Below are positions 4,336 through 54,738 of a DNA stretch of 64,000 nt, piece after piece. The translations under genes were made by a program, and so were the position numbers. Source of the DNA: Pegea sp. RAD2-039 (lineage: Eukaryota > Chordata > Thaliacea > Salpida > Salpidae); contig JAQGEQ010000263.1 in the NCBI GenBank assembly GCA_034620365.1, forward strand, positions 868,001 to 932,000, given 5' to 3'. The notes under the pieces were generated by a model. That model had not been told where the DNA came from, made no database searches, and saw only the letters and a program-made list of their open reading frames with translations. Position 1 is the first letter of the stretch. Every line of letters begins with the position of its first letter.

Positions 4336-4405
4336 ATTATAACTGAATATATAATTGTTTATTTTCGGCTATTTCTCTAACTACATCTTCTCAATAAGAA
4401 GAACA

Positions 4406-27550: not shown

Positions 27551-28170
27551 TTGAGAAAGAAATGTAGTTAAATAATAATGCATAAATCCCATAATACAAA
27601 TCTAATTGCAAAAATAAAGAAATATTTTGATAAAAAAATGTTAGAAGTTGATCAATTTTATTCAAATTAAATGTTACATGAGAAATGAGACCATGAACCA
27701 ACTTTATATCTGTCATAAAAACCAAAATTTTTGTTGAATCAAACTGCAGACTGAAGTTAATAGTCCACAGAAATATAAGATGATGAAGGATACTTTACAG
27801 CCATCTATGAAAACGCGATCATTGTGTTGAAAAATGGATGAGAAGAAAATTTCCAAGATGTTGAGAAAGAAATGTAGTTAAATAATAATGCATAAATCCC
27901 ATAATACAAATCTAATTGCAAAAATAAAGAAATATTTTGATAAAAAAATGTTAGAAGTTGATCAATTTTATTCAAATTAAATGTTACATGAGAAATGAGA
28001 TCATGAACCAACTTTATATCTGTCATAAAAACCAAAATTTTTGTTGAATCAAACTGCAGACTGAAGTTAATAGTCCACAGAAATATAAGATGATGAAGGA
28101 TACTTTACAGCCATCTATGAAAACGCGATCATTGTGTTGAAAAATGGATGAGAAGAAAATTTCCAAGATG
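27551..28170. repeat. 310-bp tandem duplication
   Basis: Two head-to-tail copies, 27,551-27,860 and 27,861-28,170, both beginning ttgagaaagaaatgtagt and ending ttccaagatg. By eye they differ at about one position (gagacc against gagatc), so the event is recent or the copies have been homogenised. A minus-strand open frame of about 64-76 codons occurs in both because of the duplication; it has no recognisable similarity. Confidence 0.95.
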
Positions 28171-31100: not shown

Positions 31101-32640
31101 AAATGGCTTAGTTGGTAGACGCTAATAATGTAACAAAGAAACAGGCACACATCGGGTGTATGTTTTAGATATGGTTAAAAAAGACATTATAGTCAGGTAT
31201 GTGAACTTCAAATGAAGTCATCCAGAAAGTAGTCAAATAGAAAAAGAAATAATGAGAGAGCTACGATAATTGCCGAAAAACTCTGAGTATTTATGCGCTA
31301 CTCAGTCTTATGAAAAATCAAACCATGTCACCGTCTATGTTTTTTTTTATAAGTTCACAAACACTTTCAAGAAATTAATGGTATAGTATTTTCTCAATAT
31401 TATTTTCAGTAATACTTTTGAAAAAGAAGAGATAACGATAAAGTTTTTGGCTGAGCTTCGTAGGCCAAAGTAAGTGATAAAAAGAGGTTGACATACCTAC
31501 TTCATTCCTGACTGTGCATGAGCTTGGGTCTTAGTGAAGAGTAGCTGAACTACTTGCCTTATTTAGATTAGTTGTTTTGTGGAACGGTCAAGTGATTTAC
31601 TACTCAAGCTTTTGCTTTTACGGAAGCAAGGACAAGATAAAGGCACCACCCCGCACGTGAGGTAATGTTTTATACCGTATTTTGACGATGAGGTGAAACT
31701 CTAAATCACGCGGGCAAAACAAGGTGTTTTATCAGAAAGTTGTTTTAAGCAATCGTCTATTTTGTGCCCTTAAGATAGCTAAGAGGTTGAAAAACATCAT
31801 TTTCATTAAGCAATATAGTAGGACCCATTTAACATAGTAGCTAGTAATTATTAAAAAAATACCGATAAATATCAGGTTATGATTATCATTACATTATCTG
31901 TATTATATTTTATATAGATTAAATTGTTATTATTTTTCTCAAATGTATCATTGAAAATGATATTTGAAAAGCACTATACCAAAAATCTAATCAAAAATAA
32001 TTAAAAAGCATAATTTTATTTTTGTTAGATGGACTGACCAAAATTATATAAAAGAGATAGGTTTAAATTGTTTGATTTTCAACAAAAGAATAACTTTGCG
32101 AAAAATTTAATTTTTTTTAAATTTATCTACACTTCAAGGCTCAGCATTCACAATTTAGATTAAATACAGGCTACAGGTACTTCTCTGGTATCTTTAAATT
32201 AAATTATTGCAGTCAACTTGAGTAAATATGAATTTATTTTTGTAAAATTAACTTATTATTAGGATATTTTTTTTGAGATTTTATTAGAGTTTGCTTTATA
32301 ATATAATCTTATTTTAGATTTCTTTTCCATAAAATTTTTAATTTATATTTATGTTTTCTTTTTTGATCTTATTGCAGAATATTTAAGAAATATTTTAAAA
32401 GAAAGATGTTTAGATTTTGAATGTGACGCCTAAAAATTTATAAAAATAAATTTGATACCATTAAAATAAAAAAAAATTTTGATAATTTATTTTATCTGTT
32501 TCCATAAAGCTATAACAATTAATAGAATTAACTAATTAATTATTAGTGAAATGAGATAGTATTTATAATAATATTTCTTAAAAGTATTCTTTTGTTCTTT
32601 TTGTATCACTCTAATAAGACATTTTAAAATTAAAAATAAT
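28171..32640. other. AT-rich spacer with decayed-looking stretches
   Basis: No supported gene. Two overlapping plus-strand frames at 30,157-30,553 contain a polar stretch (KKALELLYKDKFVNNSYF) that I cannot place. The segment 30,880-31,820 is richer in G and C than its surroundings and looks like decayed coding or transposon sequence. Neither has a clear splice or domain context. Confidence 0.45.
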
Positions 32641-32666
32641 TTTTGTATTTACTAGTTTGTAATAAA

Positions 32667-35029
32667 ATGTCAAACTCTGAGGATTCTAAGGAAGTGATTA
32701 CAGCTGCTTCAAGCTCTTTGAGTACTGATCATAAGAAAGAGGGTCAATTAGAAAAAGAAGCTCTTTTAAATAAACCTTTTAGAGGTAAAAGAAAGTTAAG
32801 TGTTTCTCAGGATCGTAAAAGGAAGAAATCGACAAGCAGTGGAGATGAAAGTCATATTTTGCCAAATACTTTCTTGTTTGGTGGCAATATTTCAGATCCT
32901 TTAAATTTGAAAGCAATGATCAGAGGTGAATCTGATTGTGTTGACTCTGGTTCACCAACCAAAAAAGCAAGATTAATTCCTAAGAAACCTGATAGGAAAT
33001 TGAAGATGCTTCCAGCTAATTTCAAAGATCCACTTAGGTTAGTAACTGAAGGACCTATAGTTAAAACTATGAAAGTTAGAAAAAAGAAGAAACAAAAAAT
33101 AGATACAAATGTGAATTCTGATACTTCTACTGCTGCAACTCTAAATAACCCAACAAAACAGGTTTGTTTTATTTATTTATTATCAAAGTTTTTATTATAA
33201 AAGTATTAAAATTTTAATTGATTTCTTTAAAATATTTGTTGAATTCAACTTGTATAAACTATTATTGAGTGAAGATGTTCAAGTAAACAAAGCCTATAAT
33301 CAATATTTTTATATTAAAAAAATTGTTTAGTCTACCAACAGTTTGGTTTTTATAAAATCAAACCCATAATTTCATTAATGTTTAATTATATACCTCTTGC
33401 TTTTCAAACCCTTTGAATATTACTTTAATATAAGAAGACTTTTTGAGTAAAAAATCTACCTACTGCAATAGTAGAGGGTCCTTACATATGTTGATCTTTA
33501 ATAATTTTTCAGACTTGCACTTAAAAGTATAAAATACTTTTTTACACATATGTTTACATTTTCATGAAAAGCAGTGTTTTTAAGTGCTGTTAGTAACAGA
33601 AGTTGTTTGTAAAAACAAGTTGTTATTTTAAAGTCTTAAAACATCAATGACAGAAAAACTTGAGTCTCTTAGAATTCAAACTCATTGCTTAAAGTATCAA
33701 CTAGAAGCATAAAATCAATCATTCAACCAAAAGATCAATTTTTACTGGAAATTTAAAGTCTTTTTAGCAGCTACCTTTGATAAAACTTCCTTATTTTACT
33801 TTATTATATTTTAAGATCTTTTTTTTATTTTAGAGATTGTTAGAGACTGGAAGAAATGATCAGATTGTTTCCCCGGCAGTTGCCCAAGACCTTACAATGC
33901 TACGAACAGTATTTGAATCTGGGAGCCAGCCAGGTGCAAAAGTTGTCACAGAATCAATGGTGAAAGCAATCAACTTCAAAAGTGGAAATTCCAAATATCG
34001 ATTTGGCAATTATCATCGTTACTATGGATACCGTTGTGATAAGAAGTTTAGTGATCCGCGTATGGAATATCTTCTTAAAGATTGGTTCAAAGGTTTTGAT
34101 CTTTTCAACTTTTTTTTCGATTTTTACATCTTGCTTGATGATGCAGATAAAGATGTCCTTGATGTAGGGTGCAACTCAGGACAACTCACTCTACTTGTTG
34201 CTAGGGACTACGGACCGCGAAAAATAGTTGGAATCGATATTGATGATAAGTTAATAGTGACTGCGCGATCTAACATACGTCATTACGCGACAACGCTATC
34301 CAAGTAACCAATCAAATCTCGTCGTAATCGCTAACTAGTTGATCTTCTTTCTAAAGATCTCAACATCTGAGAAACAGCGAGTATCCAGCTGACTTCCTTG
34401 ACCAGTATGGCCCTTCAGTCGCCCCACCTCAGGAAACGGGAACAGGAGACTCAACAAAGTTCCCCAATAACGTCATCTTTCATCAAGTCAGAACTCATCG
34501 ACTCTTTATCTTCAGGATTCTTATCTTCCTTCTGTAGGGAAATTATGTGCCAGAAGCTCGAGAAGTCCTCGACTGTCAGGAGCCTGAGTATGATGTTATC
34601 ATGTGTTTAAGTGTGACAAAATGGCTTCATTTAAATTGGGGTGACGACGGATTAAAAAGGACTTTTAAACGGATGTACAAGCAACTAAGAGCAGGCGGTA
34701 AACTGATAATTGAACCTCAAGATTGGAAATCTTATGGAAAGAAGAAGAAGCTAACAGTAATGATGATGCTATTGATGTTACTTCAACTTTTTTTAACTTT
34801 ATCTATTTTCAGGAAACTATTTTCCGCAATTATCACCAAATTAAGTTGAAACCTCAACATTTTGCCAAGTATTTGGTCGATGAAGTGGGTTTTATTGAAC
34901 CTAATTATTTAAAATGTCCTCAATATGCTGGTGGTCAGTTCTTTCTTTTATTTTTGTAACCTTTTATTTAAACATTGAAAGCTTTCAGGATTTCAACGTG
35001 CGATCATCGCTTTCACCAAACCTGAATAA
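32667..35029 (+). CDS. MEPCE: 7SK snRNA methylphosphate capping enzyme (Bin3 family)
   Basis: SAM-dependent methyltransferase that methylates the 5' gamma-phosphate of 7SK RNA and stabilises the P-TEFb-controlling 7SK particle in the nucleus. Exons: 32,667-33,161, 33,834-34,092, 34,147-34,303, 34,357-34,486, 34,538-34,756, 34,813-34,930 (or -34,933) and 34,989-35,029; about 472 residues. The N-terminal third is basic and disordered but carries the family motif [13 protein letters not shown] and a second DPLRL. The Bin3 domain shows [14 protein letters not shown] motif [14 protein letters not shown], the acidic GIDID, then [42 protein letters not shown] and the end [13 protein letters not shown]. 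The second intron (34,093-34,146) is 54 bp without stop, so its removal is inferred from family alignment. The end of exon 6 marks the outer edge of the large inverted duplication. Confidence 0.93.
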
Positions 35030-37984
35030 ACTGCTTCCTGATCTAATCTTTACAAAGTTTTCTTCAGTTTTTATTGACTTTTGTTAAGTATTTCACAATC
35101 AATTAAAATCATGTTTTCGGTTTCGGTAATAAAATTGTTGTTTTAATTGATTTTTACAACTTTGTTTACATCTCAAAAATATCTTTAAGATTTTCAAAGA
35201 ACTTGTTTTGTTTTATTTAGATTTCATTATTAATTATGACTAAATAGAATAAGTAAAATTGACAAAATCTTAGAAATTTTCTTTAATATCAAGTTGAAGG
35301 TATCGAAGCATGAATGAAATTTTCACAAGCTAGATTTACAATCCCTTTCTTATCAATCTTTGCTCTTTAAATCTTAAATCATCCTTTTAAAGATGGCTAG
35401 CTCAGAAAGATTTATAACTTCAACTGAAGCAACTCTTGAATGTCATTGCTGAAAATACTGGACTTTGTGGATGAGGTGATGCAAACTGAAATTTTGTCAT
35501 ATTTTAAATAATAGCGAAATCGAGATAAAATGATTTAAAATCATCAACATTCATTATATGGCGGCGATGAGATCATCTGGTAATCTTTGAACAAGGATAA
35601 ATGATCTTTTTACATTTCCAACTAGATTAAACTATTCCAATTCATTTTTTTAAGCTGATTATCTTCAAAATATTTTTCATATTTTCAAAAACATGCAAAA
35701 AAAATTGCTGAAAATTAATTTATTGGATTAGTGGTTATTCGATAATAATTATCTATTTGCCAACTTATCACTTCAGTTATTTCTTTTAGAAAATGTTTGG
35801 CAATGTTTAATCAAATATTGATCTATCTAAATTTTTTCGTTAGCTTTTTCAATGCCAAAGTATTTCTAATCTAATAAACTTCCTACTTTTTTTACAAACA
35901 TTGAATCTAGAAACTTTTATAGTATTTTAATTGACCACTTTCATTTGAAAACATAGAGAATATCATCATTCGATTTACTAAATTTAAAAAGATCAACTTT
36001 TTTAAGTGAGTTTGTATTGCCACAATTTTGTTAACTAGAAACTATAAAATTATTTAAAGTTATAACAATAAGTTTTTCAGTTAATTTAAATTGTAACTAA
36101 TGGTGGTTTAAACTCAAAGCTACAAATAGTAAATATTACAGCTCTAATGCAAACTGGTTATTGTATCTATCAAAAAGCTGGTTAAAAATTAAAGTTAATA
36201 TCAGAAATACTGGTTGAAGTTACATCTAAAGTACAATTATTTAATAAGAAATTTGCTAGATTGGTTCACAACTCAATTCTTGGCTAATAATACTAATAAA
36301 AGGCAAACTTGTATTTCAAATCAACTTTGTGGTCAGTGGTTGTTCCAGAGATGAACATAAGTTGAAGCGCCCACATCAAAGGGCATGCATGTTGTTATAC
36401 AGGTGAAAAGTTGTGTAATACTTATGAAGAAATCTTGAGTATGTTAAATATTATAATTAATCTTATTAAATAACTAATTAGATAGAATATATAAAGTACT
36501 ATCATCACTGTAAATACCATCAGTAGCTGTATAAGGAAGAATTTTTGGGATTTTAATGTAAATTTAAGATACTATAAATTTATTAAAAGTAAATCAATTA
36601 AAAATCAAGTTAATATAAACTGTAGTAGTGTTTAAGAGGTTTTAGACTACTTCTAAATTACAATGCCAATGAGCTAAAAATAAAATTTAATTGAAACTAC
36701 ACAATTGAAAGTTTGTAGATAATTTGTTGGAGAATTTATTATAGATGGTTCCTGTTTTACAAAAATGAGATGATATAAAATGCAATTTACCAACTTAGTG
36801 AAACAGTTTTTTCATCTTTTGGGTAAATTACAGATTTGGAAACTTTCTAACCATTTATCACTTTGAAAGAAAGGAGTGATTCACATTTTTCTAAATTTAG
36901 TTATCTAGTTATTGTTGGCAAACCGTATATTGTAAATATGAAGCAAGACTTAATAAAAATCTTTAGTTTATAATTCAATCTAGCCTTCTAAATAGCATAT
37001 TTATATTCTCATTTTGCTATTCAGACCATTTCAATAAAAGCAGTTTCAAAAGCTTTGAACGGTATTCAGGTTACCACAGAATTGATTTCAGCTATATAGA
37101 AGGAAGATTTTCAGCTTTAAATTTTAGCAGCAGAAAACCCACAAAAAATAGGAGATGTCGAGAAATCTTTTACTGATAAAGTCAAAAAAGATTAGATTTA
37201 GTCAAGTGAGAGGTGACTAATGAAATAAACTCAATTTTGAAACGTTCTTGCTGCTCTACGCGACATCTTTTTCTTAAAATGAAAAAAAAACACTAAGAAC
37301 AGAAAAGAAAACATCGGAAGAGTTTCTTTTGTAAGAAATTCTTTTGGAAGTTCTCAACATACCAGAAAAATCTACATCTTCAAGTAATCCATCATTTGCT
37401 TCTTTGTAAGTGAACTCTGGAAACTTCTAGCAACCAGAAGGCTTTTTATACAAATTCGATTCCTTATGATCAAGTAATCTTACTGAAGTATTGAATGTCA
37501 CCCTTGATTCAATTTGCTTCAGTAGTTATTCAATTTTTGTGGAGTAGATGTTGCAAATCTGTTTGACTTCTGATTTAAAATAAAATTAAAATGAGGATTT
37601 ACCCATTTGTTGATAAATCCAGAAAAGATTAGAAACAAATAACTTCTGAGTCTTACAAATAATTACTTTTCATTCGTTTTGTTCATATTTAATGCTTTTT
37701 GAGGCTGATACTGAGGTGTTTAGCGAAGCAAATATGTAAAAAGAAAAGCACTTTAGTAGCTAAGACATTATTGACCTTCTACAAAAGAGAATATATTTGA
37801 AAGAGCAAAAAGATTAGTTTTAAACTCTTGATAATGATGTCTGCGTTTACACAAAGAAAATATTTTTAAACTCATTTTATAAAGTTTTCTCAAATGTTCT
37901 AATATAAATTAATAAATTAATATATTTTGTAAACATTAACTACAAATTAGTTATGAATAATGGGAAAAAAGTCGAGAACGGCTA

Positions 37985-38100
37985 TCGAAACGGCGAAACT
38001 CAGAGGCCTTTTCTAACAGTATTGGACCAGTTCTCTCGACAGGAACCGGCCGGATTAGCGAGGGACCTATTAGCGGCGGCCTTTATAGCGAAGATGCGCT
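37985..38100 (-). mobile_element. 5' tip of Tigger-like element left in the left arm
   Basis: About 115 bp that match, in reverse, 47,715-47,850 at the 5' end of the Tigger/pogo-type element in the right arm, including the terminal-repeat core cgctaatccggccgg. The transposase region and 3' end are absent here. Because both arms have the 5' end, the element was probably in place before the duplication. Confidence 0.65.
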
Positions 38101-38806
38101 GATTAAAAGATTGATTTGTTTGAATTTAGGATAAAATATTAGTTTGGTTAAACAACAAAATAATTCTCAAAACAGTATCACTAAATCAGCGTTGTTTGAA
38201 ATTTTATTCACTCGTAAATAATAATAATAGTAGAACGGCCATAAGGGATGTGCTCTGAGTAATTGACTCCTAAAACAAAACTGGTGAAGAATTTTTATGG
38301 CATCAAAAAAAAATTCAAAGTAGTCAAGCAAAAAAACCTAAGAATTAATATTTAAAAGTTTTTAAAGCATGAAATGATTGTCATTAAAATGCCATCCTAG
38401 TTTTTATGGAAATCTTGATATCTATTGGCGTTCTAACTTTCATAAGTAAATGTGAAATATAAGCTAGACTTGTTTTATCTCAAATGTTGTTTTTCTATCA
38501 CTTTTCCTAAGCAACGAAATTGCTGTGTCGTTAAAAACTTGAAAATAAAATGTTATTTTGTTTATTTTTGGAACTGAGGTAACATTAATATTTTTACTGA
38601 AGTGTTATTGATAGAAAAAAATTTTTAGTTCAAACAATATCTTAAATGCTTTCAATCACAAATATTTAACTGGTCTTGAAAAATTCTATCTTAGTGTTAA
38701 CCTAATTTTATTCTATTGTATTCACATAATAAATATTTACAAAGTATAAATTTCTTTACTCAGCAAAGTTAGAAATATTTCAACTGCAAATAATTCATTT
38801 ATGGTT

Positions 38807-39459
38807 CATAAAAATACTTTGCGTTTTTTGCGAATTAATATTGGCACACATTGGATACCAAGTGCAGGAGACGCGGTGAAAGGGGCCGCGATTGAAGCCT
38901 GGAAGAAACGTTGAGGTACACGTGGACAAATTAGAAGCAGACCTCATATTCTGACAACGAAACACCAACAGGAGCCCTTTTAAGGGCACCACAGTCATTC
39001 GCCCCATCACCACACATGCAGGCGTGGTAATCGATTTCTTCCAAGGATTCAATCAAATCAGTCTCCTGATCAGGAGACATCCGAGCAAAAATGGTTCCTA
39101 TCACAAATCAAAAGATCAAGGTCAAGATGAGGATCAGGAACACGATGAACCTTTTGCAGCAAAGACTTGTATCCATTCAGGAAAGTATTTTCGGATGTTG
39201 GTGAAATCAGTTCCGGTGACAGCAAGATGCCACTGCCAAGCAACAGATGACATGCGGTTGCTAAGCAAGCAAGAGCGCGATTACCTTTTTTGTCGTTTGC
39301 ACTTCAATCGTATTCTTCTTCCATTCATCAGTTAGTTTCGTCACCGACTCTTCACTTTGAACAAACAAAAAATCGAAATTAAACTTTCGCAAAACAATTG
39401 ACGTCATCAACAACAACACAATGTTTGACCTTTGCCATGGCAGTCTCGTCGCTTGGACC
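38807..39459 (-). pseudogene. Truncated ATP13A fragment (exons 17-20)
   Basis: Reverse copy of exons 17 to early 20 of the complete ATP13A gene, including its introns. Minus-strand frames show [15 protein letters not shown] (exon 17), the exon 18 [10 protein letters not shown]-type segment, and exon 19 at 39,097-38,943 with [11 protein letters not shown]. The fragment starts inside intron 16 and stops inside exon 20. From that point 1.37 kb, including the rest of the coding sequence, has been deleted and the sequence resumes in the 3' flank. Exon 19 reads SPDQETDL, where the full gene has SPDQKTDL, so the P-domain hinge lysine is lost. It cannot make an ATPase. Confidence 0.92.
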
Positions 39460-39504
39460 TTGTTTAAAAACTTTTCCAAATATCTTTCGATCACAAATGG
39501 TCTT

Positions 39505-39680
39505 GATTTTTTTTTACGTTGACCTTTTTTATTTATTTATTTCAATAAATGCGAAGGAAGGTGTCCGAAAAGAGCCCCTCTCGCTAACACACCTTCTCAC
39601 AAATAACATCTATTTAGTCACGTTATTACGATAGAAATACAGAAAGCAAAAGATGTAACAAATGGCATTTCTTAGTATTC
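39505..39680 (-). mobile_element. 3' tail of the CR1/L2-like LINE
   Basis: The reverse complement matches the tail of the LINE at 13,120-13,256, including gtgtgttagcgagagg and the terminal (aataaa)-type simple repeat. Only the last 150-180 bp are present, the usual 5'-truncated form. It begins some 45 bp beyond the left-arm breakpoint, close enough to be relevant to the rearrangement. Confidence 0.8.
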
Positions 39681-39998
39681 ATTAGAATTTATTGTTGTAG
39701 ACAATTGTTACAGTTACTGTTAACAGTAATTAAAAACTGTTAAATTACTAAGACATGGAAAAATTAAAAATATTCTAGGTAAAAGTGTTATTTACTTGAA
39801 TAATCTTTTTAAAATTTTAATATAATTTTGTCTAAAACATTGTTTTTAAAATGAGCGTTTTGGAATTTTCCAAATTAATTAAAGTACATTTTCTCATACA
39901 TTGTTAATTTTTAATAGAAATACTCATTAGAAATTTCATCTGGAGTATTGGCCATGTCTTTTAAGGTTAGCTGACATCTATAATAAAATCTAATAAAT

Positions 39999-42900
39999 AT
40001 GACTTCATACGATAATAGTGATGAATTTGTGAGGTCGCAGTTGATTCCATCTGAATCAGGTATGTTAAATATGCTATTTAAATTTATAATATCAAACTTA
40101 TTTTGCTTAAGGCTATGAAATTATGTTTGTTAAACTTTAAACTTTTTAGTTTTCTTTCTTTTTTTACTGGACTAGTTTTAGCAAGCTAGTTGCTACCACA
40201 ATTTTAAAGCACATTTTATTGCTTTATGATTTTTTATGAGTTTTTGAAAGTACTTTTGATTTTTCTGCTTTTGAAAAATTTGATATTATATTATATATTA
40301 TAATTTTCATTTAAGTTTAAACATTAATAAATATAAATTAATTATATTTCTTAAACTTCTGGACAATGTGATAGCTAGATTTTTATATATTCAAACTAAT
40401 AAGATTCATTTATTTCTATTTATAGTACTTTGAATATTTTTTATTTGCAACTTTATGTATTTTATTTTCAACTATTTTCTTTATGAAATGATGATTTTAA
40501 ATCTTTATTTAATCATTATGATTATAAACTTTATATAATTTGATTATAATATGTAATTTATATTTATATATTTTTCTAAAATAATGTTATAACAAAATAT
40601 GTATTAATTCAAAAAGTTGTTTTTGAAAAGTTTTTGAAAGTTATCTTTCAAAAGTGTATTTTGACTTAAATATTGTTGATGATAGCTTACTTTATTACAT
40701 TAAATCGGTTGAAATATTGTATATTCTTTTAAGAGTACACACTCTTATATTTTAAAATGTGCTTTTATGGTATAAGTTATTAATTACTTTCAATTACCTA
40801 AATTTTTAGATAATTTACTAAATTCAATATTTGAAATGATAAAAGTTAAAATGTTGTGTATTTAGATTAATCTCTAGTGCTTATAAATTTATGTTGCCTA
40901 TACAAACAGCAATAAACATTCAAAAGTTTAAAGTTCATTTTAATAAAATCATCTAAATGCATTTCAATTTTCAATTGATAAAGATATGTATCAATTTTTT
41001 GATAATTTATTTGTGCAATTTTTTATTATAAATAAACGATTTCAACAATTTGTTTACAATTTGCTCATAAAACTTTTTTTTCCTTTTTTTGACTTTGAAA
41101 TAAACTTTATTAGATAAACTTTAGTAGATAAACTTTGTAACCGCTACAATATAACGAGAAATGAACTTTAAAACGCTGTAAAAGCTAGATAAAATATTTT
41201 GAGGCTTTTAAATCAATGTTTTTTTAACTTCCTGATGGAAAAGTAGTTTTATTTTTAATCTTAAAAATTATTTTGTAACTAAAATTTCAAAAACTTTTGT
41301 GGTATTTACTGATTTTGAAAGTAAAAGCTTAAAAAAATATTTATTAGAACAACTAGAAAGTTATTATGTTTTTTAGTGTGTTTCTTATCCAGTATTTCTT
41401 AGTAATGTATACTAATAAAAAGAATGTTTTTATCAAAGTTGTTTTCTTGAGAGCTTAACAAGGCCTAATCAAGTTGTTGCCATCTATAACCACTAAGTAC
41501 AAGATATATTTGTACTATAAAAAAGTTTTATAGTTTTTATTGTTTATTTTTGGTAAGAAGATTGAGATGCAACTAGTTTTAATTGAGATAGAATTTTGTC
41601 TCCTTATATGTGTGTTTGTACAGAACTTATTTATAAAGAAGTTTTTCTTTCAAATCTATTTATGATAATAAGTTTTTAATTCGAATAATCTGTTTCATAG
41701 ATCTAAGTTATGAGATGGCTCGTAAATATTACTGTACAATTAATAAAGGCCTTCCCAATGAACTTAAATGTACTGGATATGAGTGTAGTATGTTAAAACA
41801 GTTTCTATGTGTCTTATTCATTGTAAGTGGTTGTTGTTGAACACCAACGGTTTTATAATATCAATTATTTCTGTAGATATGTACAGGTGGCTTGGGTTTA
41901 TTGTTATTTTATTGGAGGCCTGATTGGAAGTTAATGTGGTCAAGTGTCAAAACTGATTTCTTCTCAGCTACATCAGTGTTGATAGAACCATTTGACAGTC
42001 CTGGTCAAGTCAGTATATTTTCAATAGATATTTAAATGTTAAAAATTCTGCTTTTTATAAAAGATATAAATTTTTTGATTGGTCATAAAAGCATATTTTT
42101 AACTTCAATTTTCATTCATCTAATGAATATTTGTTAGCAGAGGTCTGTGTCAAAAATATCATCTATGCCAACCCAGTTAGCAGTATTAATGGACTCGTTA
42201 TATGACTCAAAACAGAAAAGGTTTAAAAACTTCTTTTAATCTCATACACCACTATTTAAAGAAATTGTTTCAGTAAAAATAACCAGCCTGCTGTAACAAG
42301 TCAACAGTCTACAAAGTATTTCTTTTACCAGTCTAAAAGATATATTTGGAACTTAAAATTGAAGGTTTGAACATCAAAAGATATTTCTATTTGTTAAAAA
42401 TTGAATATTTTTAGACTTTTGTTGAACTTATTGGCCTAAATAAGAGAGCCACTGTTGGCCAAGTTTATAGAGACTCTAAACTAGGATTGGGAGTAAGAAA
42501 TAGAGAAGAAAGACAAAAACTTTATGGAGAAAACGTCATTAATGTCGAAGTATATCTTGCTTTTGTTTTTATTTATCTAAAATCATCAGATTTCCAATGT
42601 CAATTTTTTTAGGTACCATCTTGCCTGACACTGTTACTTACAGAGATTCTGAACCCCTTTTACGTCTTCCAAGCATTTTCTTGTGCCTTATGGTTTTCTG
42701 ATGAATACGAAATCTATGCTTCCACAATTGCAATAACTTCAGTTATTTCGGCCTTAATATCACTTTACGAGGTAAGCAAACATATTTACCGAATTAAACT
42801 ACAAATAACTTTCAAAGGTTCGTAAAAATTTGACAAACTTACATAAAATGGTTGAGTATCACAACAACACCAAAACCACACTAATTTCTCATGATGAAGA

Positions 42901-45900
42901 TCAAGAGTTATGTACTGAAGTTTGGTCGAAAGACTTGGTCCCTGGTGACGTCTTTCTAGTTCCTAATGGTGGAATGCAACTTGCCTGTGATGCTGTACTA
43001 ATTTCTGGTTAGTCTCATTGAAACTGGTGTTTCCACAACCAGCTAAAACTGGTTTCTAGGAAATTGTATCGTTAATGAAAGCATGTTAACTGGTGAAAGT
43101 GTACCAGTCACCAAAACACCAATAACTGTGAAAGATGAAGAGACTTTGTACGATGCAAGAGAGTTTAAACTGAATACTTTGTTCTGTGGTACTTCTGTTA
43201 TTCAAACTAGGTTTGTTCCAACTTATCTAATCAATTTGATTTAATCGTGGTGATTATACAGATACTACACCGGAGAACAAGTGAAAGCGGTTGTAGTGCA
43301 GACCGGTTATTCCACAGCTAAAGGTGACCTGGTCCATAGTATCTTGTACGCCAAAGAAATCAATTTAAAACTTTTGAGAGATTCGTACAAGTTTGTGGGA
43401 GTTCTGTTTGCAATTGCATTTGCTGGTTTGGTCTACACCATCATCTTTATGGTGAGTTGTGAACTCTTGTAGACTTTTTTTAACATCCAAGATGTAGTCG
43501 TCACAAGATGAAGTGATAAGCGATATCGCGTTGAAAGCTCTTGACATCATCACTATCGCGGTTCCACCAGCCCTGCCCGTTGCCCTGACAATTGGCATCG
43601 TTTACGCTCAACAAAGATTAAAGAGAAAGAAGATAAATTGCATCTCGTCTCAGCGGATTAATATCAGTGGACAAGTGAGTGTCACGTGACTAGATGAAGA
43701 TCTAACTGATGACGTCATCACCAGATCGATGTAGTCGCGTTCGACAAAACTGGAACTCTCACAGAGGATGGTCTCGATCTTAATCACATCCTCCCATCTC
43801 GAAACTCTATTTTTCTAAATCCTCTTAAATCAGAAGATGTTCAATCCTCTTTAGAGTGTTCAGATCATCTGCTTCGCGCGCTAGCTACTTGTCACTCGCT
43901 TACTAAGATTGATGACGCGCTCCAGGGAGATCCCCTAGATATTAAGTTGTTTGAAACTACTGGATGGCAACTGAAGGAGCCCGAGGTGCCCTTTTAAGCC
44001 CCATTTCAACTTCTTCATCTAACCAACACTTGAGCAGGTTAATGAGGAAGACCAATTTGACAACATCCAGTCCACATACGTACAACCCTCTTCCATGTCC
44101 ACTCAGGTACGTTTTCATGTCCTCTGTTCACTATTGATTGGTTTGTGTTAGGTCAACACCGCTAACGAGCTTGCGATTGTTCGATGTTTTGGGTTTGAAT
44201 CAAAATTGCAGCGATCTTCAGTCCTGGTCGCGTCCACGCAACAACGCGATATGGTCCTGTACTTAAAAGGTGCCCCTGAAATGGTGATCAGTCTCTGTCG
44301 CCCTGATACTGTCCCCGCTGACTTTGTCGACACCTTCACGGTTAGTAGCAGCTGTGCGCGATCATCTAATCACGTGACTTGTGCGCGATCATCTAATCAC
44401 GTGACTTGTGCGCGATCATCTAATCACGTGATTTGTGCGCGATCACCTAATCACGTGACTTGTGCGCAGGCGTTCACACAGCAGGGAAATCGCGTAATCG
44501 CGATCGCTTACAAACCAGTCAAACTCAGCTGGTTGAAAGCTCAAAAAGTTGAAAGAAGCCAGGTAGAATCGGATCTCGTCTTTCTCGCGTTGGTCGCGCT
44601 TCAAAACAAACTCAAACCACAATCGAAACGTTAGTCTTTTGTGTCCCTGATGCCTCTTAATCCTTGCATCTTCCCCAGTGACCCTGGACACGTTGAAAGC
44701 CGCTAATATCCGTTCGTTGATGGTGACCGGTGACAATCTTCTAACCGCGCTTAGTGTCGCGCGCGAATGTGGAATGATTAATCGCGCTGATAACGTCATA
44801 CTCGCGCATACACAATTACCTGATGACGTCATCGACAAGCCGTCGTTGACGTTTACATATAGTGTAGAAGGCGCCGATGGCAGGTTGGTTATTGATGACC
44901 TAGGAGTAGTGACGAGGTAGAGGAAGAGGCCCGTCGCTGGTGAATATAAAACCTCTTAATCGATGACTCACTACTCCGTATAGGGTCCCAGCGACGAGGT
45001 TGCCATGGCAACCGGTAAAGGCCAAACATTGTGTTGTTGTTGATGACGTCAATTGTTTTGCGAAAGTTTAATTTCGATTTTTTGTTTGTTCAAAGTGAAG
45101 AGTCGGTGACGAAACTAACTGATGAATGGAAGAAGAATACGATTGAAGTGGAAACGACAAAAAAGGTAATCGCGCTCTTGCTTGCTTAGCAACCGCATGT
45201 CATCTGTTGCTTGGCAGTGGCATCTTGCTGTCACCGGAACTGATTTCACCAACATCCGAAAATACTTTCCTGAATGGATACAAGTCTTTGCTGCAAAAGG
45301 TTCATCTTGTTCCTGATCCTCATCTTGACCTTGATCTTTTGATTTGTGATAGGAACCATTTTTGCTCGGATGTCTCCTGATCAGAAGACTGATTTGATTG
45401 AATCCTTGGAAGAAATCGATTACCACGCCTGCATGTGTGGTGATGGGGCGAATGACTGTGGTGCCCTTAAAAGGGCTCCTGTTGGTGTTTCGTTGTCAGA
45501 ATATGAGGTCTGCTTCTAATTTGTCCACGTGTACCTCAACGTTTCTTCCAGGCTTCAATCGCGGCCCCTTTCACCGCGTCTCCTGCACTTGGTATCCAAT
45601 GTGTGCCAATATTAATTCGCGAAGGACGCGCGGCGCTTGTGACGTCATTTGGCATGTTCAAATTCATGGCGTTGTACTCTCTCATCCAGTTCGTCACTAT
45701 CACCATCGCGTACTACTATCTATCTTCACTTAGTGATGTTGGCTTCATGTACATCGATCTTGTGATTATCGACCTTATCGCCATCACCATGTCTCGAAAC
45801 TACCCCTACAAGTCGCCTCACCAATTCTGACCATTCACAAACTAACTGATCTTCATCTCAGGGATCTACATTCTAGTCCTCCATTGACTAGCTTGGTCAG

Positions 45901-46723
45901 CAAGCCGGTATTGGCTTCTCTGATCTTTAATGTGATTCTTCAAGCTGGAATTCAGCTTGCTTCTGATTCTTATCTAATGTCTAGATGTTGGTACAATTCT
46001 TTGCCAGTTGGAGAAGGTGATAACTCCTAATTAATCTCTACATCTTCTCATCATATGTCTTGCAGTCAATCAAACTGTCTTCAACAACCTATCTTCCTGT
46101 GGTTTCAATGTGTCTTTTATTGATCAGAGTCAAGTAAGTTCAGATCTTCTTTTCGTCTTCTTCTGATCACTTTTATGTCTTAGGTTGAAGATGAGAACGA
46201 TTATATGAGTTACAATTCAGCAAACCTTCTACTGTTGTCTGTCTTCTTATATCTCAACGTATCAATCACATTTTCACAAAGTCATCCATATAGAACTCGT
46301 ATACCCAGCAACAAGCCTTTTTTGTTTGTACTTCTCATTTTGTATGCTTTAAATATTTTTATTATATTTTTTGCACCAATCGATGTATTGAATTTTATGC
46401 AAGTTCGTCACCTACCAACTAATGATGTTAAATTTGCAATGATCATCTTTGCTGCTTTACATTTCTCCTTGAGTATTTTGTTTGAAATCTTGGTGATTGA
46501 GAAGTTTTGTGTGTGGAGAATACTTGATGAAGTTTGTGGTAAAAAGTCCATGAAAAAATATCAAAAACTTGTTGAAGAGTTGGAAAACGAGAAAGAAAAA
46601 GTTCGTAGATTCAATCCTAAATCCTGCATCAATAAGAAGATTCAATCTGATATTTTCCATTTGGAAATTTATCAATCAAATACATCGGTTGAAAGTGAGA
46701 ATAAGCTCTCATCTAAAATGTGA
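39999..46723 (+). CDS. ATP13A: P5B-type ATPase, ATP13A2-5 family, complete
   Basis: Endosomal/lysosomal P5B ATPase; characterised family members export polyamines. Exons: 39,999-40,059, 41,701-41,822, 41,877-42,008, 42,141-42,220, 42,274-42,364, 42,415-42,549, 42,613-42,771, 42,818-43,007, 43,060-43,210, 43,262-43,451, 43,498-43,674, 43,725-43,985, 44,038-44,106, 44,152-44,340, 44,470-44,629, 44,679-44,883, 45,096-45,165, 45,218-45,299, 45,353-45,507, 45,552-45,811, 45,862-46,016, 46,066-46,133 and 46,184-46,723. All phases agree, giving 1,233 residues, usual for the family. Motifs: TGES (about 334), the P5B-specific PPALP (about 460), DKTGTLT with phosphorylated Asp about 503, KGAPE (about 644), MVTGDN, then MSPDQK and CGDGAND (about 871). 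N-terminal membrane-associated segment: [16 protein letters not shown]. The C-terminal tail after the last helix is polar, with [16 protein letters not shown]. Exons 17-20 are duplicated in the left arm. Confidence 0.95.
43681..43690. promoter_or_regulatory. Palindromic E-box identical to the CLEAR consensus
   Basis: GTCACGTGAC in ATP13A intron 11. This is the consensus bound by the TFEB/MITF family, which in vertebrates controls lysosomal genes including ATP13A2. Only the sequence match is seen; function in this organism is an inference. Confidence 0.35.
44353..44468. repeat. 27-bp minisatellite with E-boxes in ATP13A intron 14
   Basis: Four exact-length 27-bp units (44,353-44,379, 44,380-44,406, 44,407-44,433, 44,434-44,460) plus a partial fifth whose tgtgcgc runs into the splice acceptor ag. 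Each unit contains TCACGTGA, with CACGTG at 44,371, 44,398, 44,425 and 44,452. The intron is 129 bp (43 codons) and has no stop in the exon frame, so an unspliced message stays open. Family alignment (VDTFT joined to [11 protein letters not shown]) supports removal of the intron. Confidence 0.95.
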
Positions 46724-47700
46724 AACCAAAAATTGTCAACTTCACTTTGTAACTAGGTGCCTTATTACTCCAGCTTTAATTTCTAAAATGGATATTAATA
46801 CTTTTGGCCTGATGCTACTAAAACGTTATTTAAAACGTTGTGTTTCTGAAATCTTTCAAAGTAGTATTAGTAGAAAATTGTTTGATGAATTTATAGTTCA
46901 GCTTTCTATAGCTTTTTTTGTTTTGATGTTTAATATTTTCTGGTTGTTTTGCAAACATTTTTATTTAAAAAGAAAATATTAATGTAATTGTATGAAGTAT
47001 TTTGGAGAACCATAATGAATTATTTGCAGTTGAAATATTTCTGAATTTGCTGAGTAAAGAAATTTATACTTTGTAAATATTTATTATGTGAATACAATAG
47101 AATAGAATTAGGTTAACACTAAGATAGAATTTTTCAAGACCAGTTAAATATTTGTGATTGAAAGCATTTAAGATATTGTTTGAACTAAAATTTTTTTTCT
47201 ATCAATAACACTTCAGTAAAAATATTAATGTTACCTCAGTTCCAAAAATAAACAAAATAACATTTTATTTTCAAGTTTTTAACGACACAGCAATTTCGTT
47301 GCTTAGGAAAAGTGATAGAAAAACAACATTTGAGATAAAACAAGTCTAGCTTATATTTCACATTTACTTATGAAAGTTAGAACGCCAATAGATATCAAGA
47401 TTTCCATAAAAACTAGGATGGCATTTTAATGACAACCATTTCATGCTTTAAAAACTTTTAAATATTAATTCTTAGGTTTTTTTGCTTGACTACTTTGAAT
47501 TTTTTTTTGATGCCATAAAAATTCTTCACCAGTTTTGTTTTAGGAGTCAATTACTCAGAGCACATCCCTTATGGCCGTTCTACTATTATTATTATTTACG
47601 AGTGAATAAAATTTCAAACAACGCTGATTTAGTGATACTGTTTTGAGAATTATTTTGTTGTTTAACCAAACTAATATTTTATCCTAAATTCAAACAAATC
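46724..47700. other. ATP13A 3' flank
   Basis: Downstream of the ATP13A stop a different frame stays open from 46,569 to 46,982 and ends in a hydrophobic stretch (IAFFVLMFNIFWLFCKHF). An acceptor-like tag lies near 46,756. It may be 3' UTR or an alternative last exon; I cannot decide. From 47,010 on, the sequence pairs with the left arm (38,807 downward). Confidence 0.4.
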
Positions 47701-47714
47701 AATCTTTTAATCAG

Positions 47715-49345
47715 CGCATCCTCGCTATAACGGCTGCTGCTAATGGGTCCCTCGCTAATCCGGTCGGTTTCTGTCGAGAGAACTGGCCCAATACTGTTAG
47801 AAAAGGCCTCTGAGTTCCACCGTTTAATTTACGGTGAACACTCTAAACCCTTTTTAACAAGTTAGGGGTTTCAATGGAGGTTTTGCTGGAGATTCGGCTT
47901 GAGGATTCTCAAAATATGCGGTGAGAAATTAAGTTCAGATAGCTCATCTGCTGAGCAATTCGTTAATGAATTTTCTGGCATAACCGAGGGCTACTCCGAA
48001 CATCAAATTTTTAACTGCGATGAAACCGGATTGCACTTTAGAATTTTGCCTGAACATACCTTAATATCAGTACACAACCGGCCGGATGGAACGAAAAAGG
48101 CAAGAGATTGGTTGACAATAAATTCCTGTGCAAATGCCAGTGGAACAATAAAATTACCTTTATTGTTAACTGATAAGAATAAAAATCCGCGTTGTTTTCG
48201 TGATCTCAACTAGGTGGCGCTGCCGGTTGTCTACCGAAATCAAGCAACTTCTTGGATCGACTGTGATATTTTCCGAGATTGGGTTTTTAACTGTTTCGTT
48301 AGCTAAACGAAACAAAAGCTGAGAGAACTTGGACAAGAAGAAAGGACCATTTTGTTCCTCGACAATTGCTCTGCCCATCCAAGTAAGGACGAACTTATAT
48401 CAGCTGATGACAAAATCACTGCCAAGTTTCTACCTCCAAATGTTACTGCACTGATACAACCAATGGATCAAGATGTGCTCGAATCTATTAAAAGGGTCTA
48501 TAGAAAGTCGATTCTGAGAGATCTTGTATCGCATTCAACCTTCACCATACAGGACTTTTTGAAAAGAATTGACATGATCAAAATTGTCAATACCGTTGCA
48601 TCCGCTTGGGATATAGAAACACCAACTGCTATAAGAAACTCATGGAAGAAATTGATGCCATTACCAAGCTCTTCTATGCAAAACAGTGAGCCTTCGGAAG
48701 AAACTACAAACAGCAAGTTTACTCAGCAATTTTCGAGGATGAATATCACATTTCCAGACGATGACATCCAAAACTGGATGAGTTGCGATGGTCCTGGGTA
48801 TGAGCACATGGACGAGTAAGGAATTGTTGCACTGATTTCTGGAGACAACGAAAAAGAGGCGGATGAGGAGGTGGAAGACGAAAATAATGTTTCACAATCA
48901 TCAAAGAAAATAGATGATTACTTAGCCTACTATCGTTTTCAACCAGAAGCCAGACCAGAAAGTGGGTCACAACTTGTCCAATTCCGTGAGTTTTCTGCTT
49001 AGAAACGAGAAAGCACTATCAAACAAACCTCCATTCTTTCCTTTTTCAGAAAGAGTTCCGATATAAATTAAATTGTTTACGGTGTGATTTGTTTTCGTTA
49101 AATTAATTTTAAACCTTATCAAAGTTTTGTTTCGTTTATTTTTTCTCTGTTTTAATTGTTTGGTTCGTTTAAAAAAATGAAAATAAATTAAATTAACGGA
49201 AAATTTAGTGTGCGTTTTATTATATGTATTGCATAATATAAAAGAGGTAGATTGTTTAAAACAACGATTTTTTGTTCTTATCCGGCCAAAGGCTAATTCG
49301 GCCATAATTATAAAAAGAGCTTGCCCAACATGGCCGGATTAACGA
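47715..49345 (+). mobile_element. Tigger/pogo-type DNA transposon remnant
   Basis: Cut-and-paste element of the Tc1/mariner superfamily, jerky/Tigger branch. The ends share the inverted core tcgctaatccggtcgg near 47,750 and, reversed, tcgttaatccggcc near 49,325. Between them lies a decayed transposase (47,899-49,002). The N-terminal DNA-binding CENP-B-like domain is missing, because the frame begins with RILKICGEKLSSDSS, which in relatives follows that domain. Exact ends and target duplication could not be fixed. Confidence 0.8.
47899..49002 (+). pseudogene. Tigger-like transposase, broken
   Basis: DDE-type transposase remnant in one frame. It keeps the first catalytic Asp in FNCDETGLHF, the conserved KARDWLTINSCANASG, the second Asp in LFLDNCSAHPS and the third in QPMDQDVLESIKRVYR. 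Three in-frame stops interrupt it, at about 48,211 (TAG), 48,304 (TAA) and 48,817-48,819 (TAA). After the last stop an acidic C-terminal tail with KKIDDYLAYYRFQPEA continues to the TAG at 49,000-49,002. The catalytic triad is intact but the protein could not be made whole, and the DNA-binding domain is missing. Confidence 0.88.
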
Positions 49346-50180
49346 TTCATTGTACAATCTCATTATTTGTTAATCCTTATTTAGATGCTTCTGAGCAAAC
49401 GTTTGAAACTTAGATAACATAGTGTGGTGTATTAGTAGAGTATCTTGCCGCTGTTGTAAATGTGTTATTCAGGCGTGTATCGTGATTATAATTGTCGCTG
49501 TTGTTAGTCGCCTTCTCATAAATTTGAATAAAGCTCGATGTAAAGAGTCATTATCATTACACATATCACCAAGTGAACACAAATTTGGAAAGCTTCAGTA
49601 TCTCCTCTCACTAAAAGACGTCAGGTCAGCAACTGTAGGGTAAAGTTAGTTAATTCATCTGATACGAAGAAAATTCTCAAACAAATGTGTTGTTGAAATT
49701 AGACAAAAGATTTTTTTTCTTGTTATTCATAAGCAGGGGCATCGAACCAGAACTTGCTGCTCCTTCCTAGTAATCTTGTTTACGACAAAATTATTAGAAA
49801 AATGTTGTCATTCTGAACTGTTAAAAAAATCTGTTTACGGAGTCAAAGTGACCCAAAATAAGATTAAGATATCCACGCTTAATATAATATTAACTATAAT
49901 AGTTCTTCAGGAGATGCACAAGCAAGTATCTTAACTAAATCATTCCTATGAGAGTTGATTTTGAAAAAAGGATAAATATTGAAAAAGATAATGTGGAAAT
50001 TAAAGAAAATAAGCAGAAGCAGAACAGCTGATGTAGAAACTGTACCATAAGAACAATATTGTTTACAAATAGATTAAACATCACATTATTTGCAGTTTGA
50101 TTTATGTGGATATCCAAAAACTCCAAAATTGCTGTTTTGTAAATCAATAATATGAAAATTTCTTTTAAATTAATGTTTAC
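49346..50180. other. Right-arm-only segment, possible orphan exon
   Basis: Lies between the transposon remnant and the point where pairing with the left arm resumes. A plus-strand frame at 49,422-49,643 (73 codons) begins with cysteine pairs (SCRCCKCVIQ), then a strongly hydrophobic helix (ACIVIIIVAVVSRLLINL) and a polar part ending at a possible donor (ggtaaagt). It resembles a membrane-anchor exon, but no partner exon was found. The minus-strand hydrophobic frame at 49,935-50,207 is probably chance. Confidence 0.3.
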
Positions 50181-53075
50181 AAAATATATTAATTTATATT
50201 GGAACATTTGAGAAAACTTTATAAAATGAGTTTAAAAATATTTTTCTTTGTGTAAACGCAGACATCATTATCAAGAGTTTAAAACTAATCTTTTTGCTCT
50301 TTCAAATATATTCTCTCTTGTAGAAGGTCAATAATGTCTTAGCTACTAAAGTGCTTTTCTTTTTACATATTTGCTTCGCTAAACACCTCAGTATCAGCCT
50401 CAAAAAGCAATAAATATGAACAAAACGAATGAAAAGTAATTAGTTATAAGACTCAGAAGTTATTTGTTTCTAATCTTTTCTGGATTTATCAACAAATGGG
50501 TAAATGCTCATTTTAATTTTATTTTAAATCAGAAGTCAAACAGATTTGCAACTTCTACTCCACAAAGATTGAATAACTACTGAAGCAAATTGAATCAAGG
50601 GTGACATTCAATACTTCAGTAAGATTACTTGATCATAAGGAATCGAATTTGTATAAAAAGCCTTCTGGTTGCTAGAAGTTTCCAGAGTTCACTTACAAAG
50701 AAGCAAATGATGGATTACTTGAAGATGTAGATTTTTCTGGTATGTTGAGAACTTCCAAAAGAATTTCTTACAAAAGAAACTCTTCCGATGTTTTGTTTTC
50801 TATTTTTAGCGTTTTTCTATTATTTAAAGAAGAACGAGATGTCGCGTAGAGCAGCAAGAACGTTTCAAAATTGAGTTTATTTTATTATTCACATCTCACT
50901 TGACTAAATCTAATCTTTCTTGACTTTATCAGTAAAAGCTTTCTCGACATCTCCAATTTTTTGTGGGTTTTCTGCTGCTAAAATTTAAAGCTGAAAATCT
51001 TCCTTCTATATAGCTGAAATCAATTCTGTGGTAACCTGAATACCGTTCAAAGCTTTTGAAACTGCTTTTATTGAAATGGTCTGAATAGCAAAATGAGAAT
51101 ATGAATATGCCATTTAGAAGGCTAGATTGAATTATAAACTAAAGATTTTTATTAAGTCTTGCTTCATATTTACAATATACGGTTTGCCAACAATAACTAG
51201 ATAACTAAATTTAGAAAAATCTGAATCACTCCTTTCTTTCAAAGTGATAAATGATTAGAAAGTTTCCAAATCTGTAATTTACCCAAAAGATGAAAAAACT
51301 GTTTCACTAAGTTGGTAAATTGTTTTTTATATCATCTCATTTTTGTAAAACAGGAACCATCTATAATAAATTCTCCAACAAATTATCTACAAACTTTCAA
51401 TTGTGTAGTTTCAATTAAATTAAATTTTATTTTTAGCTCATTGGCATTGTAATTTAGAAGTAGTCTAAAACCTCTTAAACACGATCACAGTTTATATTAA
51501 CTTGATTTTTAATTGATTTACTTTTAATAAATTTATAGTATCTTAAATTTACATTAAAATCCCAAAAATTCTTCCTTATACAGCTACTGATGGTATTTAC
51601 AGTGATGATAGTACTTTATATATTCTATCTAATTAGTTATTTAATAAGATTAATTATAATATTTAACATACTCAAGTTTTCTTCATAAGTATTACACAAC
51701 TTTTCACCTGTATAACAACATGCATGCCCTTTGATGTGGGCGCTTCAACTTATGTTCATCTCTGGAACAACCACTGACCACAAAGTTAATTTGAAATACA
51801 AGTTTGCCTTTTATTAGTATTGTTAGCCAAGAACTGAGTTGTGAACCAATCTAGCAAATTTCTTATTAAATAATTGTACTTTAGATGTAACTTCAACCAG
51901 TATTTCTGATATTAACTTTAATTTTTAACCAGCTTTTTGATAGATACAATAACCAGTTTGCATTAGAGCTGTAATATTTACTATTTGTAGCTTTGAGTTT
52001 AAACCACCATTAGTTACAATTTAAATTAACTGAAAAACTTATTGTTATAACTTTAAATAATTTTGCAGTTTCTAGTTAACAAAATTGTGGCAATACAAAC
52101 TCACTTAAAAAAGTTGATCTTTTTAAATTTAGTAAATCGAATGATGATATTCTCTATGTTTTCAAATGAAAGTGGTCAATTAAAATACTATAAAAGTTTC
52201 TAGATTCAATGTTTGTAAAAAAAGTAGGAAGTTCATTAGATTAGAAATATTTTGGCATTGAAAAAGCTAACGAAAAAATTTAGATAGATCAATATTTGAT
52301 TAAACATTGCCAAACATTTTCTAAAAGAAATAACTGAAGTGATAAGTTGGCAAATAGATAATTATTATCGAATAACCACTAATCCAATAAATTAATTTTC
52401 AGCAAATTTTTTTGCATGTTTTTGAAAATATGAAAAATATTTTGAAGATAATCAGCTTAAAAAAATGAATTGGAATAGTTTAATCTAGTTGGAAATGTAA
52501 AAAGATCATTTATCCTTGTTCAAAGATTACCAGATGATATCATCGCCGCCATATAATGAATGTTGATGATTTTAAATCATTTTATCTCGATTTCGCTATT
52601 ATTTAAAATATGACAAAATTTCAGTTTGCATCACCTCATCCACAAAGTCCAGTATTTTCAGCAATGACATTAAAGAGTTGCTTCAGTTGAAGTTATAAAT
52701 CTTTCGGAGCTAGCCATCTTTAAAAGGATGATTTAAGATTTAAAGATCGAAGATTGATAAGAGAGGGATTGTAAATCTAGCTTGTGAAAATTTCATTCAT
52801 GCTTCGATACCTTCAACTTGATATTAAAGAAAATTTCTAAGATTTTGTCAATTTTACTTATTCTATTTAGTCATAATTAATAATGAAATCTAAATAAAAC
52901 AAAACAAGATCTTTGAAAATCTTAAAGATATTTTTGAGATGTAAACAAAGTTGTAAAAATCAATTAAAACAACAATTTTATTACCGAAACCGAAAACATG
53001 ATTTTAATTGATTGTGAAATACTTAACAAAAGTCAATAAAAACTGAAGAAAACTTTGTAAAGATCAGGAAGCAGT

Positions 53076-53194
53076 TTATTCAGGTTTGGTGAAAGCAATG
53101 ATCGCACGTTGAAACCCTGAAAGCTTTCAATGTTTAAATAAAAAGTTACAAAAATGAAAGAAAGAACTGACCACCAGCATATTGAGGACATTTA
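53076..53194 (-). pseudogene. MEPCE 3' fragment in the right arm
   Basis: Minus-strand copy of the end of MEPCE: a piece of exon 6 (from about 53,194), intron 6 and exon 7 (53,116-53,076) with [13 protein letters not shown] and TAA. It has no upstream exons because the duplication breakpoint lies inside exon 6, so it is non-functional by itself. Confidence 0.92.
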
Positions 53195-54738
53195 AGTTTT
53201 AAACCTTGTAAAATATTTAAAGTTTATAAGGATTAAAATATTCTAGATATTATTTAAATAAAGCCAAATAATATTTTCTTATCAGATTTTTTAACAGATA
53301 ATCTTTTGTTAAAATAAAATTCGATTTCGCTGGGCTTGTCTCGAACGAAGTGTTCTAGATGACTTATAATAAACTTTTATTGGAATTTAAGTTAAACAAT
53401 TTTCATATTGAAAAATATAAGCTTTATGCATTGTAAACACAAAATAATAATATTATCGAATTATAGTTTTATTTATATTTTGGAAGATTTCTTAGTTTTA
53501 TTATTAGAAATTTTCTTTCTAATACCCACTGACAAAATATTTTATAATTTCTTAACTTATAGGTCATTCCTGTCGAGTACTTTTAAATATTTAATTATAA
53601 CAATTGTTATAAGATCTAGTTAGAAAATTTAGCTACAGATTATTTTTGTCGTTACAGAACCGGCTAAAAATGGATTTTAAATTACAGCTGGCAAGTCTCA
53701 TCAGCTTGAGGTATTTCTTGGCTCTTAGCACTTTAAGTTTTAAATTTTGATACCTGATGAATAATAACATTAGAAATACAACTTCTTATAATTTCTGGTT
53801 TCCGGTTAAAACTTTTCACTATAAATTATATAAGGATTAGGTTTAATTGTTTGATATTTTCTTGTGAAATTCATATAAGTAGTACCTGAAGATTAGGATT
53901 ACATTTCATAATTTTAATGAAATTTTAACATTTTGGGAAACGTGTTTCGAATTATCGTTAACTAGTAAAAAAGCGCTGCTAAAGATTCAGAAAAAGTTGG
54001 TTCCATTTACAGCTAACATTTTTTGAATTTTTGCTGTTTTATGATATTATCAGAATCATTTAAACTTTTAAACTAGATAATTATATTTTCTAGATATTTA
54101 TAAAAGCTTAAAAAGCAGTTAAATTATGATACATTGCATCAAATAAAAGTTTGAACTTTCTTTTTATATTGACAAAAAAACAAATAAGTTTTGCTTTGAG
54201 TATTTCTTTTGTAATTTTCAATAGTTGCTTCATTGTGGTTTTTGTTTTGTTAAAAAATTACTATTTGAGTTTAAACTTTCTGTTAGTGGCAAAATTTAAG
54301 TAATTTTCTTAAAACTTTGTGAAAGTCAAAAATTATAAAACATACTGTGATAGTGTACTATTTGTTAAAAAGAATAGTACGTGGCTCGTAGCTACTTCAC
54401 TTTTATATGCTACATTTGAACATTAATCAATTTGATATGTTCTGTTTTACTCACAAAATGGTATTATTAAGCTTTAAAGTAAGGTTATTTTTATCAAAAA
54501 TTCTTGTTCTTGTAACTTTTTGTTGTTGTCATCGACGTAACTTTACAATTGAAAAATATTTTAACAAATTACAAAAGCAAAACAATTTTTAAACTTAGAT
54601 ATGATTTCTTTATTGTTTAAAATTTGGTAGGAGAAAAAATAGAGAGTTTTCTGAACAAAAAAGTTAAACAATTTGTAATAAATTCCATTTAAATTTTAAA
54701 GATCACACGTAAATACAGTTCAATTGCAAAAAAATCTC
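53195..54738. other. Spacer between right arm and carbonic anhydrase
   Basis: AT-rich, no supported gene. Open frames of 61-71 codons at 53,408 and 54,407 are hydrophobic and lack context. AATAAA on the minus strand at 54,609-54,614 may be the poly(A) signal of the carbonic anhydrase gene. Confidence 0.5.

Follow-up and report, generated by a model that had tools for sequence, protein, structure and literature searches.

An inverted duplication around the ATP13A gene of a salp, probably the scar of a small inversion with a staggered breakpoint

How does a piece of DNA come to lie, in opposite orientations, on both sides of part of a gene while that gene and its neighbour are both left whole? 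The question is raised by a 64-kb stretch of the genome of the salp Pegea sp. RAD2-039 (assembly GCA_034620365.1; 105.7 Mb in 387 contigs), which comprises positions 868,001-932,000 of contig JAQGEQ010000263.1 (C32) and is referred to here as the window. In this window, two inverted arms enclose the first part of ATP13A, which encodes a P5B ATPase, and the outer edge of one arm lies within an MEPCE-like gene. We interpret the structure as the probable scar of a small inversion with a staggered left breakpoint. The main features are as follows (window numbering).

34,912-39,459, plus strand: left arm, 4,548 bp, with the MEPCE 3' end, intergenic DNA, a transposon remnant and a truncated antisense fragment of ATP13A (exons 17-19 and part of exon 20)
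39,460-44,983, plus strand: spacer, 5.5 kb, with the upstream region and exons 1-16 of the 23 exons of ATP13A
44,984-53,193, minus strand: right arm, 8,210 bp, with ATP13A exons 17-23 (read on the plus strand), a transposon, intergenic DNA and a fragment of the MEPCE 3' end (read on the minus strand)
32,640-35,029, plus strand: MEPCE-like gene (Bin3 / 7SK methylphosphate capping enzyme), its start placed at the first open frame and its N-terminal extent provisional
39,999-46,723, plus strand: ATP13A (P5B ATPase), 23 exons and 1,245 amino acids, uninterrupted across the spacer and the right arm

Self-BLAST of the window pairs 34,912-39,459 in reverse with 44,984-53,193. The pairing consists of three inverted blocks, all collinear and each with E = 0: 34,912-37,939 with 53,193-50,170 (3,037 columns, 97.6%), 37,988-38,819 with 47,825-46,995 (832 columns, 97.7%), and 38,821-39,459 with 45,629-44,984 (646 columns, 97.4%). 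In an alignment of the whole arms, 81 of 4,478 sites differ (98.2% identity) when a 48-bp patch of the left arm and its edges (37,935-37,990) are excluded, and 102 of 4,534 when they are included. Gaps of 1 to 8 bp are present in both arms, and identical runs reach 284 bp. An earlier sequence-only reading of the window had therefore located the arms to within one base, and the near identity over about 4.5 kb that it reported agrees with the aligned sites; its description of the duplication as giant overstates arms of 4.5 and 8.2 kb.

The two genes are divided between the arms in a reciprocal manner. The MEPCE-like gene contains a Bin3 domain (E 5e-28), its C-terminal piece matches the 7SK methylphosphate capping enzyme structure 5UNA (E 5e-43), and its last two exons are joined across a GT-AG intron, with the frame open to a stop at 35,029. 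The MEPCE coding sequence runs across the left arm's outer boundary (34,911/34,912); only what follows this boundary is present in the right arm, and MEPCE is complete only by way of the left arm. By eye, the last exon shows two differences between the arms, both synonymous. For ATP13A, the exon model was built from GT-AG splice sites chosen by eye. Translation and comparison with ATP13A2 structures served as checks, and the spliced protein matches these structures along most of its sequence (best E 4e-213). This gene is whole only by way of the right arm, which adds exons 17-23 to the exons 1-16 (about 802 amino acids) of the spacer. In addition, a fragment of the other gene lies in each arm, and the gene that is cut at one copy of the breakpoint is whole at the other. 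The gene structures thus bear out two further claims of the sequence-only reading, namely that the convergent MEPCE and ATP13A 3' ends recur in both arms and that the spacer is the 5' two-thirds of ATP13A. As a separate observation, ATP13A intron 14 (44,353-44,467) is for the most part a 27-bp tandem repeat that can be read in an open frame with the flanking exons.

Copy number was assessed by querying the assembly with DNA from 32,500-36,500, 36,400-38,900, 44,984-46,984, 47,600-50,400 and 53,150-54,150 and scoring the best candidates. These queries cover most of the arms, and among the candidates scored no further arm copy was found; apart from the two arms themselves, the matches were to the transposon or were short, weak and few. 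For the query 36,400-38,900, for instance, 4 of the 23 matches are the two arms and the other 19 are the transposon end. The spacer was searched through its protein (40,061-44,983) and, in its upstream part, as DNA; it is single copy in the protein search for the ATP13A exons and in the DNA search for the upstream part, apart from a dispersed repeat described below. The ATP13A protein gave 26 matches in the assembly, of which 24 lie in the window (the gene and the left-arm fragment) and the remaining two, both weak and on contig C139, appear to belong to a different P-type ATPase. The count of 26 is a lower bound, since it does not contain a 136-bp remnant found by DNA match at C30:964,403-964,538, which is 77% identical to ATP13A exons 21-22 with the intervening intron, carries stops, and is perhaps an older partial duplicate of the ATP13A end. 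Neither the MEPCE body nor the ATP13A exons nor the right flank turned up in a second copy in the assembly. Thus, the spacer segment is flanked by an inverted duplicate of DNA that, transposon and short matches apart, was found only in these two copies in searches with most of the arm sequence.

Because the MEPCE body is continuous with the left arm, and ATP13A exons 1-16 with the right, the simplest ancestor would have had MEPCE and ATP13A tail to tail, with a single copy of the 8.2-kb junction between them. From the same split in gene continuity, the segment between the arms would be inverted relative to the ancestral order. In the history that we consider probable, two breaks about 8.2 kb apart would have occurred on two strands or on sister chromatids, one within the terminal part of the MEPCE coding sequence (34,911/34,912) and one in ATP13A intron 16 (44,983/44,984), and a third, clean break would have occurred upstream of ATP13A. 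The segment with the first 16 exons of ATP13A would then have been rejoined in reverse, with the 8.2-kb junction DNA left at both of its ends in opposite orientation. Through this duplication of the junction DNA, the MEPCE end would have been kept at the left and the ATP13A end at the right. Later losses would have removed about 1.4 kb from the left arm, in which the ATP13A fragment is redundant, and a further stretch of about 2.3 kb from its transposon region. An inversion with staggered breaks is the simplest explanation that we find for the split of the native connections, which it would produce in one event with both genes kept. If the reconstructed ancestor is right, then neither join, examined by eye, has any shared bases, which fits plain end joining.

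Several points weigh against this history. The ancestral contact of 39,460 with 53,194, to the right of the spacer, is deduced from the locus itself, and the junctions are those of the assembled sequence. In addition, template switching can yield an identical product, and the differences between the arms are clustered near some junctions in a way that could reflect error-prone copying.

The locus is another example of an already known kind of structure, the inverted duplication at an inversion breakpoint. The inversions of Drosophila subobscura that are compared here are reportedly much longer than the present locus. In Drosophila mojavensis, single-copy DNA and genes are described as duplicated in inverted orientation at both ends of the segments inverted in 2h and 2q, as at the salp locus, and the copies at 2h (7.1 kb intact and 2.7 kb with deletions) are ascribed to staggered breaks (PMC3355041). 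At both 2h and the present locus, one copy is intact and the other has been cut down by deletions. The cases differ in that an uninverted relative, Drosophila virilis, is available for D. mojavensis (PMC3355041), whereas the ancestral order proposed here comes from the locus itself, and in that the flipped segment here is made up of 5.5 kb of unique DNA and one arm. For the D. subobscura inversions O8, E1, E9, E3, E12 and O3, a duplicate derived from one breakpoint only is described, with truncated copies that decay (PMC5080602). The salp locus shares with this group the one-breakpoint duplicate and the decay of a truncated gene copy while the other is kept; the D. subobscura cases differ in being polymorphic chromosomal inversions.

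The decay is visible as two large gaps in the left arm relative to the right arm, of about 1,365 bp (right-arm positions 45,630-46,994) and 2,344 bp (47,826-50,169). The features concerned are as follows.

37,940-37,987, plus strand: 48-bp patch in place of the 2,344 bp of the right arm
37,988-38,105, minus strand: left end of a DDE_1 transposon, with the same internal junction as the right-arm copy
38,820, plus strand: site of the left-arm deletion of about 1,365 bp, where ATP13A is gone from within exon 20 to past the stop, with about 10 mismatching bases near the join
47,712-49,346, plus strand: internally deleted copy of a DDE_1 transposon whose family occurs in many places in the assembly, its right end provisional

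These two deletions, which were absent from the sequence-only reading, account for the shorter left arm. The intact ATP13A gene and the transposon copies elsewhere in the assembly suggest that the differences at the large gaps are losses from the left arm and not gains by the right, and both gaps fall in the left arm, where the ATP13A fragment is not needed. The joins of both gaps carry nonmatching bases, a pattern that end joining often leaves; a source for the 48-bp patch was sought in the assembly, and no other match was found. The transposon, which we take to be of the pogo/Tigger type, spans part of the intergenic DNA between MEPCE and ATP13A. Compared with three other copies, it lacks an internal piece of about 320, 50 and 180 bp, respectively. 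Since its left end has the same internal junction and the same flank in both arms, insertion and internal deletion preceded the duplication. The probable order of events would be insertion and internal deletion of the transposon, then duplication, then the left-arm gaps.

The sequence-only reading, which proposed no origin for the duplication, had offered a chimeric assembly of two divergent haplotypes as an alternative. A divergence of 1.8%, as between the arms, is within the range of allelic difference for many invertebrates. However, the left "allele" would be without an ATP13A end, since the deletion that removes exons is confined to the left arm, and the contig would have to contain two separate false joins, neither of them accounted for by the edge of a repeat. 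The single-copy parts that were searched did not recur in the assembly, although a purged assembly would look alike. On these grounds we regard misassembly as unlikely. A copying mechanism has a somewhat better claim. In template switching of the microhomology-mediated break-induced replication type, DNA synthesis would have proceeded across MEPCE and the junction DNA, switched to the other end of ATP13A, come back over ATP13A and the junction, and switched once more to the right flank. The distribution of differences is compatible with this process, in that the inner arm end (4 of 39 sites and a 7-bp gap) and the surroundings of the exon deletion (7 of 59) are far more divergent than the remainder of the arms (51 of 4,216). 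A repair-only origin of breakpoint duplications has also been argued for D. subobscura O7 (PMC7584159). Divergence is uneven elsewhere in the arms as well, with 10 of 118 sites in the transposon end and 9 of 46 in one further cluster. Against this stand the two jumps required, the second landing beyond the copied segment, and the lack of microhomology at either join, as judged by eye from the reconstructed ancestor. Likewise, similarity between 30-bp flanks, in a test that was not anchored at the joins, was not above chance, with values as high in 3,812 of 4,000 random pairs for the inner junction and in 1,267 of 4,000 for the outer. The start of the spacer also has a short match, in inverted orientation, to the right flank; its score was reached by 171 of 4,000 random pairs, and it was taken as weak. 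Template switching is therefore possible in our view, though rather less probable than an inversion with staggered breaks.

Two further origins are disfavoured by gene continuity and by repeat edges, respectively. In the first, a double-strand break would have been followed by fold-back, with the single-copy spacer as the loop. In human disomic-spacer inverted duplications, two inverted arms likewise enclose a short single-copy spacer; 21 sequenced junctions are described, with spacers of 766 to 70,466 bp, a range that includes the 5.5 kb found here, and with microhomology of 2 to 8 bp (PMC3907307). In the fold-back model, however, the spacer continues from the noninverted arm, to which the native flank is also joined. 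Fold-back thus predicts the MEPCE body and ATP13A exons 1-16 on the same arm, whereas here they connect to different arms, and a second flip of the spacer would therefore be needed. As for inverted microhomology, the similarity of the 30 bp at the spacer edge was equalled or exceeded in 3,812 of 4,000 random pairs, and by eye the join shares no base, given the reconstructed ancestor, although a tract of 2 to 8 bp may have been lost. Altogether, fold-back seems very improbable. The second origin invokes a large mobile element with long inverted ends, either transposed or acting as a substrate for ectopic recombination. Both arms do contain a DDE_1 end, and the start of a dispersed repeat is close to the inner junction.

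39,524-39,671, strand not assigned: dispersed short repeat of high copy number, whose matches start 48-75 bp inside the inner junction; its edge is not at the junction

The arm ends that were searched as DNA, at 44,984 from the arm side, showed no edge of a repeat, the arms carry the ends of host genes, and the assembly searches gave no further arm copy with the same ends. We find an origin from a mobile element scarcely credible. The dispersed repeat is about 150 bp long; besides this copy, a short way upstream of ATP13A, the window has one at 13,125-13,258, and at least 44 matches were counted, itself included, from the best 40 of 2,090 first-look candidates.

The sequence-only reading also held that such structures are unstable and can drive hairpin formation, amplification or gene conversion. 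The first two are not shown: the searches, made with most of the arms, gave only two arm copies besides transposon matches and short similar stretches, and no amplification was seen. As for gene conversion, the inner part of the arms is less divergent than the outer part (8 of 1,252 against 52 of 3,010 sites; Fisher p = 0.006, or p = 0.03 without one mutation cluster), in a post hoc comparison whose inner part contains exons. This may be a weak sign of conversion between the arms, and given the length of their identical runs, exchange between them is possible in principle.

Other inverted duplications were surveyed in C32:1-200,000 and in the window, a small part of the genome that says little about how common such structures are. 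In C32:1-200,000, copies longer than 1 kb occur only in the first 46 kb, and among the 60 matches listed (down to 242 bp) no inverted pair with at least 95% identity lies at 46-200 kb. C32:1-46,335 is dense in direct and inverted copies of up to 9.9 kb, the longest at 88-98.5% identity, with long open frames, some of which appear by eye to resemble reverse transcriptase. The start of the window, 1-6,492, contains an inverted 758-bp pair (2,761-3,518 and 4,546-5,303, 94.5%) and a direct 810-bp copy (1-809 and 5,683-6,492, 96%). This repeat recurs at C32:857,401-873,303 and on contigs C68 and C69, some neighbours lying 9.44-9.48 kb apart, with at least 56 matches from the best 40 of 600 candidates, and looks like a small ampliconic array. 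Elsewhere in the window, 27,551-28,171 holds two tandem copies of a 311-bp unit at 99.7% identity, and TTAGGG repeats are present on four contigs of the assembly, in which no match to COX1 was found.

Reading from a single strand now passes through MEPCE, the left arm, ATP13A and the right arm in turn; a transcript that ran through all of them would therefore include the two arms and would fold back as a long double-stranded RNA. It is conceivable, if highly doubtful, that such an RNA serves as a source of small RNAs that damp MEPCE and ATP13A and that the arms also let the spacer flip back. If so, the double-stranded RNA would carry the ends of both genes, and a flip of the spacer would separate ATP13A from its only complete 3' end. 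As the probable scar of an inversion with staggered breaks, the locus would be a compact example of a small inversion that passes through two genes and leaves both whole because the break site was copied, and its decayed left arm would illustrate the fate of a spare copy. A large inverted repeat in an assembly, accordingly, is not necessarily a mistake or a site prone to amplification.

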